Below are positions 45,912-52,278 of a stretch of DNA of 53,667 bases, piece after piece (the first letter of the stretch is position 1; every line of letters begins with the position of its first letter). The notes below the pieces were generated by a model. That model made no database searches, was not told the origin of the DNA, and was given only the letters and a program-made list of their open reading frames with translations. The position numbers were made by a program, and so were the translations under genes. The DNA is from a virus, in the IMG/VR virus record IMGVR_UViG_3300031986_000023, positions 1 to 53,667 of that record; one strand, written 5' to 3'.

Positions 45912-46136
45912 ATGGGATTCTTTTCACGACTAGGCCTGATCAGTCAGGTGCAGCCCGCCGAACCCGCGGTTGATTGGGAGGCGAAGTATAAGGCCGCGAT
46001 CACCGATCTCGCCGCCGCATCCGAAGAAATCACCCGCCTCAAACCGCTCGCCGAAGCAACGGAACGCCGCCGGCAGAATGAAGCCAACCGCGTCCGTCCG
46101 TCTCGCGCCAAAGCCCCCACGAAAGGTCCAAAATAA
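45912..46136 (+). CDS. Hypothetical protein, 74 aa
   Basis: AGGAG lies 7 nt before ATG 45912, better than the ATG at 45906. N-terminal MGFFSRLGLI then a charged helix (AAITDLAAASEEITRLKPLAEAT) and a basic tail. Could bind nucleic acid or a membrane; unknown. Confidence 0.5.
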   Translation: MGFFSRLGLISQVQPAEPAVDWEAKYKAAITDLAAASEEITRLKPLAEATERRRQNEANRVRPSRAKAPTKGPK

Positions 46137-46879
46137 TGGAAACGCTCGCTCAAATCATCGACCGCTGGAACTCTGGCGAAGGCAAGCCCTACAAAGGCTC
46201 GCTGATCGACTACGGCGCATATGAAGCTGATAAAGACAGCATCGGTTGCATGTGTGCGCAGGGGCAGGTGCTTCACCTGCTCGGCGGATGGGAGCCGGAA
46301 CGCCTTCGCAAAACCGAACAGGTCAAGGCCGACGAAGCGACGGCGAAACTTCTCAACATCAGCGTTGCCCACGCGATCCTGCTTCGGAATACCAATGACA
46401 GCATCGACGGTGCGCCCGCAATCGTCCTGACCAATCCTGAAAAGGTACTCGGCGACCAAGCGCATATCGTGCTGGCCTTCTGGCTGCATATGGACCGGAT
46501 GACGGCGAAAGAATGGGACGCCGCATGGGCCGCCGCATGGGCCGCCGCAGGGGCCGCCGCATGGGACGCCGCATGGGACGCCGCATGGGCCGCCGCATGG
46601 GCCGCCGCAGGGGCCGCCGCATGGGACGCCGCATGGGACGCCGCATGGGCCGCCGCATGGGACGCCGCACGGGCCGCCGCACGGGCCGCCGCATGGGACG
46701 CCGCATGGGCCGCCGCATGGGCTTGCTCCGAAATCCAAGGCACCCACCTTCTGCGCGAACAGGGCAAGCCGTTTTACTTCCTGCCGTTCTTTGGTTTCGC
46801 CAACCCCGAGGAGATCCCTGCGCTGCCCGCTGATTATGGTGCCCCCACGAAGGCTGTCGCGGCGAAGGGGAGGAAGTGA
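46136..46879 (+). CDS. Trp/Ala tetrad-repeat phage protein, 247 aa
   Basis: N-terminal domain (1-125) ends with NDSIDGAPAIVLTNPEKVLGDQAHIVLAFWLHMDRMTA, a family that recurs in phages. Residues 128-195 are 17 tetrads of the type A-A-W-D or A-A-W-A, giving tryptophan at every fourth position on a long helix. A C-terminal domain with KPFYFLPFFGFANPEEIPALP follows. Function unknown; repeat numbers likely vary between strains. Confidence 0.75.
   Translation: METLAQIIDRWNSGEGKPYKGSLIDYGAYEADKDSIGCMCAQGQVLHLLGGWEPERLRKTEQVKADEATAKLLNISVAHAILLRNTNDSIDGAPAIVLTNPEKVLGDQAHIVLAFWLHMDRMTAKEWDAAWAAAWAAAGAAAWDAAWDAAWAAAWAAAGAAAWDAAWDAAWAAAWDAARAAARAAAWDAAWAAAWACSEIQGTHLLREQGKPFYFLPFFGFANPEEIPALPADYGAPTKAVAAKGRK
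46517..46720 (+). repeat. 17 tandem 12-bp units
   Basis: Seventeen exact-length units of G(A/C)CGCCGCA(T/G/C)GG cover 204 bp. Units 2-6 and 7-11 form a 60-bp perfect duplication, so the array has grown recently by slippage or unequal exchange. Confidence 0.95.
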
Positions 46880-47648: not shown

Positions 47649-47869
47649 CCCACCACCCCGACCCATCGCCCTGCGTCGAGCATGTTTTCGGCAACGTCCT
47701 GCACAGAGAGTTCCCGATGCATATCGCGAAAATCCGCGAATGGAAGCGGCGCAATACCGGCGTGTCTGGTGAAGGCGCCACCGTCCCCCACGATCCGGCG
47801 AAGTACCACGCCAAGCGCAGTCGTTCGGCGCGGAAGGGGTTTGTTGAGCGGCGGGAGATGGTGGGGTGA
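47645..47869 (+). CDS. Hypothetical phage protein, 74 aa
   Basis: ATG overlaps the cupin stop. Basic C-terminal half (PAKYHAKRSRSARKGFVERREM), several His residues. Stop overlaps the methyltransferase GTG. Not recognised. Confidence 0.5.
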   Translation: MTHHPDPSPCVEHVFGNVLHREFPMHIAKIREWKRRNTGVSGEGATVPHDPAKYHAKRSRSARKGFVERREMVG

Positions 47870-49182
47870 GCCTTCGCGCCGCATCCTGTTTTTCCGGCAT
47901 CGGCGCCCCCGAACTCGGCGGGCCGCAATTCGAATGGCTGTGGCACGCCGAGGTGGAGAAATTCCCGTCGGCTGTCATGGCCACGCGCTTCCCCGATAGC
48001 ACGAACCTTGGCGACGTGACGGCCGACGACTTCCTGCAACGCGCATCGGCGTTCGGTCGGCTCGATTTGCTCGTCGGCGGCCCGCCCTGTCAGGATTTCA
48101 GTGTTGCGGGCCTTCGCGCCGGCGTGGCTGGTGATCGCGGCAACCTCTCCCTCCGTTTCATGGAAATCGCTCATGCAATTAGACCTCGAAACCTTCTTGT
48201 CGAAAACGTCCCCGGCTGGCTCAACATGCCCGACAACGCGTTCGGCTGTTTCCTGGGCGCACTTGTCGGAGCAGATGATGCCCTGTGTTCGCCACTCGAC
48301 GGAAAGTGGCCCAGTGCAGGTATGGTTGCCGGGCCAAGGGCACGGGCTGCATGGCGGGTTTTCGACGCTCAATATTTCGGAGTGGCCCAACGACGCCGCC
48401 GTGTGTTCGTTGTCGCAGATTTTGGAGAAGGGGCCGATCCCGCAGCGGTTCTTTTTGAGCGCAAAGGCGTGTCAGGGAATTCTCCGCCGCGCCGAGAAAC
48501 GGGGCAAGGAACTGCCGGAACAATTAGCGCGCGCACTCAAGGCGGTGGCGGACTTGGGACCGACTTCGAACTTGGAGGCGGCTTAGTCCAGTGGCCTGCT
48601 GAAATCGCAGGGACGCTCAACACGCACCTTGGCGACAAGCAGGGGCTTGAGGATCAGCACATCAACGGCGGTTGCGGCCATTTCATCGCCCGCAGCCTTC
48701 GCGGCGAAGGCTTCGACGCCAGCGAGGATGGAACGGGGCGCGGGACGCCGATTGTGCCGGTGGCGTTCTCGAGCAAAGATTATGGCAACGACGCGACCGA
48801 CGATCTTTCGCCGACGCTGCGGAGCATGGGGCACGACAAGAGCCATGCGAACGGCGGCGGGCAGATGGCGGTGGCCCAACCCGTCGCCTTCATGGAAAAC
48901 CAGCAGGGCGCCGTCTGGGAAGCCGATGTGTTTCAGGCGCTCAATCGCGGCGGTGGGAAGCCGGGGCAGTCCTATCCGGCTGTTCGCGAGGGCTGGCAAG
49001 TCCGGCGCCTCACCCCGACAGAATGCCACCGCCTACAGGGCTTCCCCGACGACCATTGCGCGATCCAGCATCGCGGCAAGATCGCAGCCGACGGTCCGCA
49101 GTACAAGGCGCTCGGCAACAGCTGGGCCGTTCCCAACGGCGCCTGGATTATCGGGCGCATCGCAGAAAGATTGGCAGCATGA
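47866..49182 (+). CDS. dcm: C5-cytosine DNA methyltransferase
   Basis: 438 residues. Motif I FSGIGAPELG (9-18), catalytic PCQ in GGPPCQDFS (Cys75), ENV (113-115), QRRRR (175-179), a target region containing GTISARTQGGGGLGTDFELGGGL and C-terminal motifs RRLTPTECHRLQGFP and YKALGNSWAVP. All canonical motifs of C5 methyltransferases are present. Orphan: no restriction endonuclease in the region. Residues about 103-240 are overprinted by another reading frame. GTG start overlaps the previous stop. Confidence 0.95.
   Translation: MSLRAASCFSGIGAPELGGPQFEWLWHAEVEKFPSAVMATRFPDSTNLGDVTADDFLQRASAFGRLDLLVGGPPCQDFSVAGLRAGVAGDRGNLSLRFMEIAHAIRPRNLLVENVPGWLNMPDNAFGCFLGALVGADDALCSPLDGKWPSAGMVAGPRARAAWRVFDAQYFGVAQRRRRVFVVADFGEGADPAAVLFERKGVSGNSPPRRETGQGTAGTISARTQGGGGLGTDFELGGGLVQWPAEIAGTLNTHLGDKQGLEDQHINGGCGHFIARSLRGEGFDASEDGTGRGTPIVPVAFSSKDYGNDATDDLSPTLRSMGHDKSHANGGGQMAVAQPVAFMENQQGAVWEADVFQALNRGGGKPGQSYPAVREGWQVRRLTPTECHRLQGFPDDHCAIQHRGKIAADGPQYKALGNSWAVPNGAWIIGRIAERLAA
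48173..48586 (+). CDS. Overprinted phage protein inside methyltransferase gene
   Basis: 137 residues in the +1 frame of the methyltransferase. STLNISEWPNDAAVCSLSQ and then LSAKACQGILRRAEKRGKELP match, in my memory, a recurrent phage protein family. Starts MQLDLETFLSKTSPAGST, also seen as start of such proteins. The overlap covers the ENV and QRRRR motifs of the enzyme. A random frame would not give this. ATG at 48173 has GGAA about 9 nt upstream. Function unknown. Confidence 0.7.
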   Translation: MQLDLETFLSKTSPAGSTCPTTRSAVSWAHLSEQMMPCVRHSTESGPVQVWLPGQGHGLHGGFSTLNISEWPNDAAVCSLSQILEKGPIPQRFFLSAKACQGILRRAEKRGKELPEQLARALKAVADLGPTSNLEAA

Positions 49183-49352
49183 AACACGCCATCCACTCCC
49201 TATTCGCCCCACCCATCCCCATCGACGACGAAGGCCGATACGCCGTCGCACCCGATGGCCCGCGCTATCATGCCGAGCCTTTGCGGGTGTTCGATACGCG
49301 GGAGCAGGCGGAGGAGTGGCGGGCGGGGCAGATTGAGGGGGTGAGGGGGTGA
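49179..49352 (+). CDS. Small phage protein, 57 aa
   Basis: ATG overlaps the methyltransferase stop. MKHAIHSLFAPPIPIDDEGRYAVAP and VFDTREQAEEWRAGQIEGV; the last part resembles a small domain with REQAEEW. The stop overlaps the next GTG. Confidence 0.6.
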   Translation: MKHAIHSLFAPPIPIDDEGRYAVAPDGPRYHAEPLRVFDTREQAEEWRAGQIEGVRG

Positions 49353-49726
49353 CGTTCCAAAGCCACATCCTGCCCGAGCACGACGTGCGGCCCTATTCGA
49401 TCGCGCAGCTGGCCAATCGATGGGGCTGCAGCGACAGCATGGTCCGCAAGCTGATCAATCAGGGCCAGTTGCAAACATTTCGCATCGGTGCGCTTATTCG
49501 CGTGAGTGCAGCCGAAGTGGAGAGGTATGAAAAATGTCCAGTGAACCCGAGCCTTATTCCGTCCAGCGATTCCGAGGCGGATTCGCCATCGTGTGGAGAG
49601 ACACTGAGGGCGGCCCCCGTCGCCGTCGTCAACTCGCCGCGACAGATCGGCCGAGCGCCGAAGCGGAAGCTCGCGTCATCTGGGAAAAAGCCGACAGTTC
49701 GCCCTGGACTGCGGGTCGTATCATGA
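49349..49726 (+). CDS. Excisionase-like helix-turn-helix protein
   Basis: 125 residues from a GTG. Residues 15-62 (YSIAQLANRWGCSDSMVRKLINQGQLQTFRIGALIRVSAAEVERYE) are a winged-helix of the excisionase/MerR type. Just before the integrase, so it is a likely recombination directionality factor. The C-terminal 64 codons overlap the integrase gene in another frame and look unstructured. Confidence 0.75.
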   Translation: MTFQSHILPEHDVRPYSIAQLANRWGCSDSMVRKLINQGQLQTFRIGALIRVSAAEVERYEKCPVNPSLIPSSDSEADSPSCGETLRAAPVAVVNSPRQIGRAPKRKLASSGKKPTVRPGLRVVS

Positions 49727-50532
49727 CGGCATACATCGCGAGCATCGCTGGCAAACCGTCTCATGTGCGGTCGCAGGACGCATGGAAGGCGATGAAGGCT
49801 TTCTGGGAAGGCGTCGACCCGGCGATCATCGACGAGAAAATGTGCAAGGATTACCGCAAGACGCGAGCAGTCAAGGATTCGACCGCGCGCTACGAGCTCA
49901 TGCGCCTGTCCACCGCGCTTAACTGGGCCGTCGATGAGAAGCATATCGAGAAGCGCGGCAAGATATGGCTGCCAGCATCGACCGAACACACGACCAAGCA
50001 TCTCACCCGCGACGAGTTCGACCAGTTCCACGACGGAATGATCGCGCCCCACGCTCGCCTCTATGCGCTCGTCGGCGTCTATACCTGCGCGCGGCCCGGT
50101 GCGATCCTCGACCTGACATGGGATCGCGTCGACTTCATGCGCCGGCAGATCAATTACAAGATCGAGGATGCGGCACAGACTCGCAAGCGCCGCGTCATCG
50201 TGCCGATCGGTCCGCGGCTGCTCGCCGCGCTGCAGGAAGCCTATTCTGCGCGCACCACGACCTTTGTCATCGAGCGCGGCGGCAAGCAGGTCGCCAACAT
50301 CAAGAAAGCGTTTCAGGCGGCCAGCGAAAGGAGCAGTGTCCATGCGACGCCGTACACGCTCCGCCACACCGGGGCAGTCTGGGCGGCCGAGGCTGGCACA
50401 CCGATGTCAGAACTGGCGCAATTCCTAGGCCACGACGACGACCGCACGACTCAAAAGCACTACGCGCGCTTCTCGCCGGACTATTTGATGAGGGTCGCCG
50501 ACGCGATCGAGCAGGGGAGGAAATCGGCATGA
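49534..50532 (+). CDS. int: Tyrosine recombinase (phage integrase)
   Basis: 332 residues. N-terminal SAM-like region (57-145) and a catalytic domain with Arg187 in TCARPGA, Arg277 in PYTLRHT (the usual first His of HxxR is Tyr274), His300 in LGHDD and nucleophile Tyr310 in KHYARFSPDYL. It would integrate the prophage into the adjoining tRNA-Pro gene. The gene points to the tRNA 3' end, 56 bp away. Starts within the excisionase-like gene (193-nt overlap). Confidence 0.95.
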   Translation: MSSEPEPYSVQRFRGGFAIVWRDTEGGPRRRRQLAATDRPSAEAEARVIWEKADSSPWTAGRIMTAYIASIAGKPSHVRSQDAWKAMKAFWEGVDPAIIDEKMCKDYRKTRAVKDSTARYELMRLSTALNWAVDEKHIEKRGKIWLPASTEHTTKHLTRDEFDQFHDGMIAPHARLYALVGVYTCARPGAILDLTWDRVDFMRRQINYKIEDAAQTRKRRVIVPIGPRLLAALQEAYSARTTTFVIERGGKQVANIKKAFQAASERSSVHATPYTLRHTGAVWAAEAGTPMSELAQFLGHDDDRTTQKHYARFSPDYLMRVADAIEQGRKSA

Positions 50533-50588
50533 AGGTTCAATTGGAACCCTCGACCCCTGTATTTCTGCGGCAAAAAGCGCGGATTTAT

Positions 50589-50620
50589 TGGTCGGGGAGA
50601 GAGGATTCGAACCTCCGGCC
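50589..50620. other. Probable attachment core (attR or attL) in tRNA 3' end
   Basis: Integrases of this type use the 3' half of a tRNA gene as attB. The integrase ends 56 bp from this tRNA 3' end, so the crossover is likely within the T-arm/acceptor segment. The matching copy is expected at the other prophage end, beyond the window. Exact core not determinable here. Confidence 0.55.
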
Positions 50621-50665
50621 CCTGCCTCCCGAAGACAGTGCTCTACCAGGCTGAGCTACTCCCCG
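50589..50665 (-). tRNA. tRNA-Pro(CGG)
   Basis: The minus strand folds as a 77-nt cloverleaf with acceptor CGGGGAG/CTCCCCG, D-arm around AGCTCAGCCTGGTAGAGC, anticodon stem CTGTC/GGCAG with loop TTCGGGA (anticodon CGG, proline), T-loop GGTTCGAATCC, discriminator A and encoded CCA. It is intact despite prophage integration, so the phage supplies or preserves the 3' end. Confidence 0.95.
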
Positions 50666-50709
50666 ACCGATCTGCGCGCCGACCGGGGTCGCCGCGAAGG
50701 CAGGGCGGT

Positions 50710-50738
50710 CCTCTAGACGCGCAATCGGCGAACTTCAA
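50710..50738 (-). promoter_or_regulatory. Candidate tRNA-Pro promoter
   Basis: On the minus strand TTGAAG (50738 to 50733), exactly 17 bp, TAGAGG (50715 to 50710), ending 44 bp before the tRNA 5' end. Spacing is ideal; the -10 matches only partly. Confidence 0.4.
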
Positions 50739-50772
50739 GCGCCAATCGGCACATTCAACAGGATTGCCGCGG

Positions 50773-51201
50773 CTACAGCATTTCGCCACTTCGAAAGCTG
50801 AAATGACCGCCCTCGACAAAAATCAGATGGTCGACAAGCTCGATGCCCAGCGTCCGCAAGAAAAGCACGGTTTCGCGGGTCGTCGCGATGTCGGCGTCGC
50901 TCGGCTGGGCAATATTCGACGGGTGATTGTGCGCCATGATGACCCGTACAACGCCACCGCCCAACAGGTTTCGCCAACATCGCGGCGGGATAATGCAGCG
51001 GCCCTTGCTATCACCGCCGACGCGTTCGAGGCGGACAAGCCGTTCGAAGGCGTCGAACCCTGCGAGGAGCAGCGTCTCGTGGTCGGCAGCGAAATGCGGA
51101 CGCAGCAGATGCCGCGCGACGTCATCTTCGGCTTCAAAAGCGATGTAGCCAGCCAGATCCGACGGACCGGGCGTATGGTCGATGGGAGCAAGCAGGGTCA
51201 T
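50773..51201 (-). CDS. RadC-like JAB/MPN domain protein
   Basis: 142 residues. MAHNHPSNIAQPSDADIATT carries the HxHPS-x6-SDxD JAMM zinc signature of the RadC JAB domain, followed by GIELVDHLIFVEGGHFSFR. Shorter than full RadC (about 220 residues) because the N-terminal helix-hairpin-helix part is absent; the first 60 residues are different. On the chromosomal side of the tRNA. Function of RadC proteins is unsettled; a role in DNA repair is not supported by recent knowledge of the family. ATG 51201 chosen as the first good start. Confidence 0.8.
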   Translation of the reverse strand: MTLLAPIDHTPGPSDLAGYIAFEAEDDVARHLLRPHFAADHETLLLAGFDAFERLVRLERVGGDSKGRCIIPPRCWRNLLGGGVVRVIMAHNHPSNIAQPSDADIATTRETVLFLRTLGIELVDHLIFVEGGHFSFRSGEML

Positions 51202-51342
51202 GGGGCTTCTCATGCGCGCGGTGATCGGGATCGCCAATCGGCGACTGCGCCGCTTTGGACGCTTTGTGACAGCATCCCGGCTGCGCCCTTGTCGGCATGG
51301 CGCGCACAGCCTAGCAAAGAGCGACCAAACCGGGAGCGAGTC

Positions 51343-52278
51343 TTGCCTGAATCCATCCATTATGAACTGCAATATCTCGACCTGATGCGCCGCATTTGGG
51401 TTGAGGGCGACGAGCGTGTCGACCGTACCGGGGTGGGGACGCGTTCGCTGTTCGGCGAAACGATGCGATTCTCGCTGAAAGACGACGCGATTCCGCTGCT
51501 GACGACGAAGCGCGTGTATTGGAAGACCGCGCTGCGCGAGCTGCTGTGGTTCCTGACCGGCGACACCAATATCCGTTCGCTGGTGTCGCAGGGCGTGAAG
51601 ATCTGGACCGACTGGCCGCTCGAAAAATATCGCAAGGCGACGGGCGAGGCGATCAGTGCCGAGGATTTCGAGGCGCGGATCATTGCCGATGACGCTTTCG
51701 CGGCCCAATGGGGCGATTTGGGGCCTGTCTATGGCCACCAGTGGGTCAACTGGCCGCGGTATGAGCCTGCGGGCGAGGGGCTGTTCCGGCGGGCCGAGCA
51801 GGGACATAACCAGATTGCGGCGCTGATTGAGGGACTGAAGACCAACCCGGGATCACGGCGGCATATATTTACCGGCTGGAACGTGGCCGATCTCGACCGC
51901 ATGGCCCTCCCGCCATGCCATATGACCTATCAATTCCACGTCCGCAGCGATGGCGGGCTGTCGTGCCTGCTGTTCCAGCGCTCGTGCGACCTGGGGCTTG
52001 GCTTTGCCTTCAATGTGTTCGAGGCGGCGCTGCTGACGCGGATGGTTGCCGATCAGTGCGGCGTGCATGCGCATGAGCTGGTCTGGACGGGCGGCGACGT
52101 GCATCTGTATCTGAATCACGCCGAGCTCGTTGAACAACAGATGGGCCGAATTCCCGACGGCGCACCGAGACTTCGCATCCTGCGACGCCCGGAAAGTATT
52201 TTTGAATATAATTTCGATGACTTCGCGGTCGAAGCTTATGCTCCGCAAGCGCATATTGCGGCGCCGGTCGCGGTCTGA
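51343..52278 (+). CDS. thyA: Thymidylate synthase
   Basis: 311 residues, converting dUMP to dTMP with methylene-tetrahydrofolate. Signature GTRSLFGETMRFSL, KIWTDWP, GPVYGHQWVNW, the catalytic Cys192 in LPPCHMTYQFHV and RSCDLGLGFAFNV, with C-terminal YNFDDFAVEAYAPQAHI. The usual C-terminal valine is preserved (PVAV). TTG start (51343) chosen because GGGAG lies 6 nt upstream and homologous proteins begin with a similar short lead to HYELQYLDLMRR. Chromosomal housekeeping gene. Confidence 0.95.
   Translation: MPESIHYELQYLDLMRRIWVEGDERVDRTGVGTRSLFGETMRFSLKDDAIPLLTTKRVYWKTALRELLWFLTGDTNIRSLVSQGVKIWTDWPLEKYRKATGEAISAEDFEARIIADDAFAAQWGDLGPVYGHQWVNWPRYEPAGEGLFRRAEQGHNQIAALIEGLKTNPGSRRHIFTGWNVADLDRMALPPCHMTYQFHVRSDGGLSCLLFQRSCDLGLGFAFNVFEAALLTRMVADQCGVHAHELVWTGGDVHLYLNHAELVEQQMGRIPDGAPRLRILRRPESIFEYNFDDFAVEAYAPQAHIAAPVAV

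Follow-up and report, generated by a model that had tools for sequence, protein, structure and literature searches.

The question raised by this locus is whether an open reading frame nested in the +1 frame of a viral C5-cytosine methyltransferase (MTase) gene encodes a protein of its own and, if it does, what this protein does beside the enzyme whose gene it shares.

A reading frame nested in a viral methyltransferase gene

The window, that is the whole stretch of DNA that was analysed, comprises 53,667 bp (62% GC) of an IMG/VR virus record. It contains an MTase gene, whose product is called alpha hereafter, in which the PF00145/Dcm profile and motifs I, IV, VI, VIII, IX and X were all detected. 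The +1-frame ORF, whose product is called beta, overlies alpha residues ~103-240, including the motifs ENV (113-115) and QRRRR (175-179). The preliminary description, made from the sequence alone, had claimed a complete MTase frame with both motifs inside the overlap and a coherent 137-residue protein in the second frame. Both claims stood: the 438-aa frame is intact with the two motifs located there, and the second frame runs from the ATG at 48173 to the stop at 48586, the motifs quoted for it being exact. The features of the locus are the following.

47866..49182, + strand: alpha, C5-cytosine DNA methyltransferase of 438 aa, GTG start, in-frame motifs I-X (PF00145 E 7e-34, TIGR00675 E 8e-35, PHROG 116 E 1e-74)
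48085..48093, + strand: alpha motif IV, PCQ, 5' of the overlap (translation)
48162..48165, + strand: SD-like GGAA, 7 nt before the beta ATG, a weak match in the window (sequence; relatives have GAGGTG, GTGAGG or GTGGAG at the same place)
48173..48586, + strand: beta, +1-frame ORF nested in alpha, 137 aa, ATG start (ATG and ORF conserved; wobble positions constrained in three clades)
48202..48210, + strand: alpha motif VI, ENV, double-coding, read in beta as part of SKTS (translation)
48368..48553, + strand: conserved core of beta, residues 66-127, SEWPNDAAVCSLSQILE..PQRFFLSAKACQGILRRAEKRGKELP..L..AL, with predicted helices at 80-86, 97-110 and 116-127 (alignments; AlphaFold2 pLDDT 81-93 over residues ~91-130)
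48388..48402, + strand: alpha motif VIII, QRRRR, double-coding, read in beta as part of WPNDAAV (translation)
49003..49050, + strand: alpha motif IX, RRLTPTECHRLQGFPD, kept in alpha here unlike in M.EcoHK31I (translation)
49114..49134, + strand: alpha motif X, GNSWAVP (translation)

Elsewhere in the window, positions 46136-46879 encode a 247-aa protein with a AAWDAAWDAAWAAAWAAAG repeat (PHROG 3416, E 4e-5), and this repeat keeps all frames long and open. Positions 49349-52278 carry an excisionase, an integrase and then a thymidylate-synthase-like ORF of 546 aa; the probable readings are the integration end of a temperate phage, close to thyA, or a thyA carried by the phage itself. Among the profiles, PHROG 864 bears the label DNA primase, yet an MTase stretch within it (profile 672-989) matches alpha at E 1e-49; the label is therefore misleading, or the family includes fusions.

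Retention of the +1 frame among phages

Taken alone, the open +1 stretch is unremarkable: when synonymous codons are shuffled at >60% GC, comparable C-terminal stretches remain open in 46% of cases. Because openness is unsurprising in such GC-rich DNA, conservation was needed as the deciding test. In tblastn searches, the 137-aa product matched 146 phage records, and the 62-aa core matched 156 records of phages and 535 of plasmids; the plasmid matches are mostly P1-like, to judge from their size and Dmt-type annotation, and 531 of the 535 extend over 80% or more of the core. In all of the first 16 regions inspected, an MTase-type frame accompanies the match, which is offset by +1 from it. They belong to phages of Enterobacter, Salmonella, Sinorhizobium, Pseudomonas, Cronobacter, Mycobacterium, Ruminococcus, Oscillospirales, Pectobacterium, Vibrio, Brevundimonas, Streptococcus and Aeromonas, and to P1.

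Three sets of MTases were fetched by MTase-frame queries alone, so that their selection was blind to the +1 frame: set A (window type), set B (Firmicute type) and set C (Streptococcus type). The +1 ORF and its motif are retained in 80/81 members of set A, the sole exception (L196) having an in-frame deletion that takes out the beta helices and leaves alpha intact. The frame is open in all 82 members of set B (strict motif in 77, obvious variant such as ACLGILHRA in 5) and in 76 of the 77 analysable members of set C. Over the three sets together, it is lost in two of ~240 MTases. The beta ORF is spread over phages of Proteobacteria, Firmicutes, Actinobacteria, cyanobacteria and Akkermansia; the overlap had been presented as a rare situation, which it is not, since it recurs in phages of many host groups. 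In Vibrio phage 1.088.O (L492), a large internal deletion of the MTase fuses its N-terminus to the segment after motif VIII, and the +1 domain is degenerate.

Synonymous constraint and comparison of frames

Nucleotide diversity per codon position was computed from codon alignments of 76 (A), 63 (B) and 62 (C) non-redundant MTases. The wobble diversity of alpha is ~0.55-0.60 upstream of the ORF, starts dropping near the +1 start (~85 codons before motif VIII in sets A and B, ~105 in set C), falls to 0.214 (A), 0.133 (B) and 0.248 (C) in the core, and rises again past the +1 stop. For the core, a null in which synonymous codons were permuted within each gene gave 0.665 (A), 0.623 (B) and 0.591 (C), corresponding to z values of -140, -158 and -38, and the N-terminal part of the beta ORF is also constrained (z -65, -69 and -51, respectively). 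These z values take no account of phylogenetic relatedness, an effect whose size is given by the control regions upstream (-22 in A, -24 in B, -2.7 in C) and after the ORF (-5, -14 and -7).

The codon phase is inverted in the core, where the wobble position varies less than the first position (pos3 < pos1), the pattern expected if +1 is a coding frame. Mean pairwise identities in the core for frames 0, +1 and +2 are 0.57, 0.70 and 0.52 in set A, 0.74, 0.85 and 0.67 in set B, and 0.64, 0.64 and 0.47 in set C; in all three sets the conservation of the +1 protein equals or exceeds that of the alpha frame. Upstream, the corresponding values for set A are 0.62, 0.27 and 0.27. Between the MTase of the window and that of the window's nearest relative (L170), 22 wobble positions differ over 90 codons upstream, as against 8 over the 134 codons beneath the ORF. 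The preliminary description had proposed a true double-coding region, to be recognised by lower synonymous variation in the MTase frame over this segment. The wobble collapse confined to the ORF in three clades agrees with this expectation, and the retained +1 ORF, the constraint in both frames and the conserved start bear out the proposal itself. A chance ORF in GC-rich DNA is ruled out by the +1 retention, the wobble collapse and the frame identities.

The start site of beta and the dmt gene of phage P1

In set B, the +1 ATG stands at the identical column in 63/63 sequences; frame 0 requires just Asn or Asp at this place, for which AAC or GAC would serve, and GAGGTG precedes the ATG by ~8 nt in most of the sequences displayed. 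In set A, the ATG occupies the main site in 64/75, with Asp, Asn or His in frame 0, and is preceded by a GTGGAG- or GTGAGG-like sequence. The ORF, its start and the SD-like site are conserved across diverse hosts. The dmt gene of the laboratory phage P1 (L495, AF234172.1) has an intact overlapping ORF of 157 aa (ATG 66728, stop 67201), with GTGGAG 8 nt 5' of the ATG. P1 Dmt shares the overlapping +1 ORF with the window MTase, and this ORF is unannotated in the P1 record; in P1 Dmt, unlike in the window, alpha forms a fusion with a Dam-type domain. The same record grades the C5 activity of Dmt merely as "perhaps".

Search for stand-alone copies and existing database entries

The beta domain was found in 482 of 487 loci, in all 482 of them over motif VIII of an other-frame MTase (two judged by eye), and no copy outside MTase genes occurs among these 482. 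Stand-alone phage proteins of this pattern, mentioned in the preliminary description, did not appear among these loci, and the +1 entries of databases annotate this same ORF, either as a nested gene or in pieces. Annotated entries are orf14 of Streptococcus phage MM1 1998 ("C5 methyltransferase beta subunit"), gp45 of Streptococcus phage P0092 and gp104 of Mycobacterium phage Thibault. In the latter (L491, 845-1462), an HNH endonuclease gene within the double-coding segment splits the MTase, and gp104 is the annotated +1 product.

Both Streptococcus proteins match PHROG 16143, orf14 over its full length (E 5e-82), and so do 72/120 of the family. The window beta matches this profile at E 0.0013, and the Streptococcus and window groups match each other at p 1e-22 in profile-profile comparison. 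Orf14 and gp45 have the same nested +1 position as the window beta, but the Streptococcus members are devoid of the RRAEKRGKxLP hairpin and start farther upstream; they had not previously been grouped with the P1 or proteobacterial phage ORFs as one family. Pfam and NCBIfam gave no convincing match for the +1 product, a PDB sequence search with beta gave no match, and no paper on overlapping genes in phage MTases was found in the open-access literature searched.

Resemblance to an in-frame segment of classical methyltransferases

The beta core, SLSxILE..P.RYFLS, bears a resemblance to a segment that stands in frame after motif VIII in classical C5-MTases; in beta, a recognisable version of this segment (L.DILE..V..KY.LS..) is borne on a helical C-terminal unit. 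When an HMM of the +1 core was compared with 29,734 ORFs, the in-frame matches were classical MTases only, all of them directly after motif VIII. With hhalign, the +1 core matches the Bacteroides-phage type at p 3e-7, in a comparison that, like that with SPR, is partly selected because the Bacteroides-phage (BD26P3) and SPR MTases were retrieved with a segment look-alike peptide. It matches the Dcm group, chosen as reference for a similar segment, weakly (p 5e-4). None of the 77 alphas of set C has the segment in frame. In single-chain C5-MTases, an ordered segment separates motif VIII from the target-recognition domain (TRD); on sequence comparison, the overlapped alphas are without it. The presence of the segment either in frame 0 or in +1 suggests an ancestral change of frame, after which the segment would have been supplied in trans.

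Structure predictions

The AlphaFold2 model of beta (mean pLDDT 65) has low confidence over the N-terminal ~80 residues and a pLDDT of 81-93 over residues ~91-130; Foldseek found no fold match for it in the PDB, the best E value (2.9) being meaningless. In the AlphaFold model of alpha, computed from a 36-sequence alignment, the catalytic domain is mostly confident and residues 200-377 have a pLDDT of ~30. This low confidence is consistent with a small domain needing a partner, and it may also come from the shallowness of the 36-sequence alignment over a variable TRD.

A long-beta class and known two-polypeptide methyltransferases

PHROG 1008 weakly matches the +1 N-termini. Its members (L636, L638, L642-L750), drawn from genomes and viral contigs, constitute a long-beta class of +1 ORFs of ~250 codons nested in C5-MTase genes. 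Their offset is +1 in 83/83 loci with a recognised alpha, with a mean overlap of 244 codons. Motif IX (LNPxWVEWLMGFP) lies in beta in 70 of these 83 loci and in alpha in one, motif X lies in alpha in 76, the long-beta ORFs bear TRD-like repeats (WPTPTA..), and wobble diversity drops over the same stretch. Nine long-beta loci were initially scored as non-overlapping; the six that were read all had an other-frame alpha, and L655, L703 and L710 begin at contig edges. At a further locus (L707), the long-beta ORF continues into MTase motif X, by natural fusion or frameshift, and a stop near motif IV interrupts alpha. The N-termini of long and short betas match at p 1e-4 to 8e-6, a match that may arise merely because the underlying alpha genes are related.

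In the M.EcoHK31I system, the gene of the small polypeptide overlaps the large gene in another frame. This two-polypeptide C5-MTase has motifs I-VIII and X in its larger polypeptide and motif IX in the smaller one (PMC3404938). The long-beta class has the same motif split, with IX in beta and X in alpha, and its motif content suggests a widespread system of the M.EcoHK31I type. A motif IX located in the small subunit and missing from the large one is thus a feature of this class and not of the window: the window beta is shorter than the M.EcoHK31I type and has only the segment following motif VIII. The window pair would work like M.EcoHK31I but is not classed with it, since alpha retains motif IX. 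M.AquI is likewise a two-subunit C5-MTase (PMC3404938), as the window pair would be, but it is split inside the variable region, its small subunit carrying motifs IX and X, and has no nested arrangement of this kind.

Function of the nested product

Both frames are under protein-level constraint, the start is conserved, the overlap is constant, and the segment stands in +1 where it is absent from frame 0. We therefore regard the +1 ORF as almost certainly a genuine conserved overlapping gene, and beta would be translated from its own start site within the MTase gene. Its product is probably the nested small subunit of a split, two-polypeptide C5-cytosine methyltransferase. Beta would bind alpha and be needed for its activity, bringing on its helical C-terminal unit the segment that alpha is missing, and it may have originated by frameshift of an ancestral in-frame segment. 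Points for a subunit are that beta always lies inside an MTase, that its counterpart stands in frame after motif VIII, that motifs are split in the long-beta class and that pLDDT is low over alpha residues 200-377. Against it stands L196, in which alpha is intact without the beta helices; moreover, alpha might act alone, since it retains motif IX together with a long variable region. The preliminary description had suggested regulation of the enzyme or action against host defence; the evidence points to an MTase subunit rather than to either.

Regulation would mean that beta, as a detached copy of the hinge segment, competes for its docking surface and restrains alpha until late in infection. 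Such a role would fit a protein that never leaves the MTase and resembles one of its segments, an alpha that retains motifs I-X including IX, and the loss of the beta helices beside an intact alpha in L196. However, alpha has no segment in frame and hence nothing of its own to compete with, and the location of motif IX in beta of the long-beta class argues for a structural role; we consider regulation unlikely. An independent phage protein (for counter-defence, nucleic-acid binding or another function) that arose atop the MTase gene and was carried along is slightly less likely still. The core is indeed basic and helical, and the PDB sequence and fold searches were without significant match, but several hundred loci include no copy outside MTase genes, and the protein resembles a segment that stands in frame at the corresponding place of MTases.

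Ribosomal frameshifting near motif VIII could reach the +1 segment and yield a short alternative form of the MTase, as the +1 core follows immediately on motif VIII, the very place of the in-frame segment in classical MTases. The conserved ATG and SD far upstream would be needless for this, and so would a wobble constraint that spans the entire ORF, 70-85 codons ahead of motif VIII, which makes frameshifting very improbable. That the constraint acts on RNA or DNA (a regulatory structure), or that the +1 similarity simply follows from conservation of the MTase, with no +1 protein, accords with the frequency of long +1 ORFs in GC-rich genomes; nevertheless, the phase inversion, the +1 identity at least equal to that of frame 0 and above that of +2, the conserved start and stop and the occurrence in Firmicute phages as well leave such a reading hardly credible.

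Significance

A nested second MTase polypeptide is a known kind of arrangement, and some Streptococcus-phage copies are already annotated. What appears undescribed in the open-access literature searched is how widely it occurs, its double coding in quantitative terms, its presence in P1 and the short form devoid of motif IX. We hold the chances to be about even that many phage C5-MTases, P1 Dmt included, are obligate two-subunit enzymes whose second subunit, derived from a formerly in-frame segment, is hidden in the +1 frame and conditions their activity or specificity.

It is routine to annotate, clone and assay a phage C5-MTase as a single protein. Should many of these enzymes need a +1-encoded partner, recoding the gene would remove this partner unnoticed, and failed activity assays would be explained. 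A stretch of DNA that encodes two pieces of one enzyme would be a useful case for the origin of overlapping genes. If the proposal is true, this is a widespread double-coding gene of tailed phages, which its presence in the E. coli phage P1 makes directly testable.
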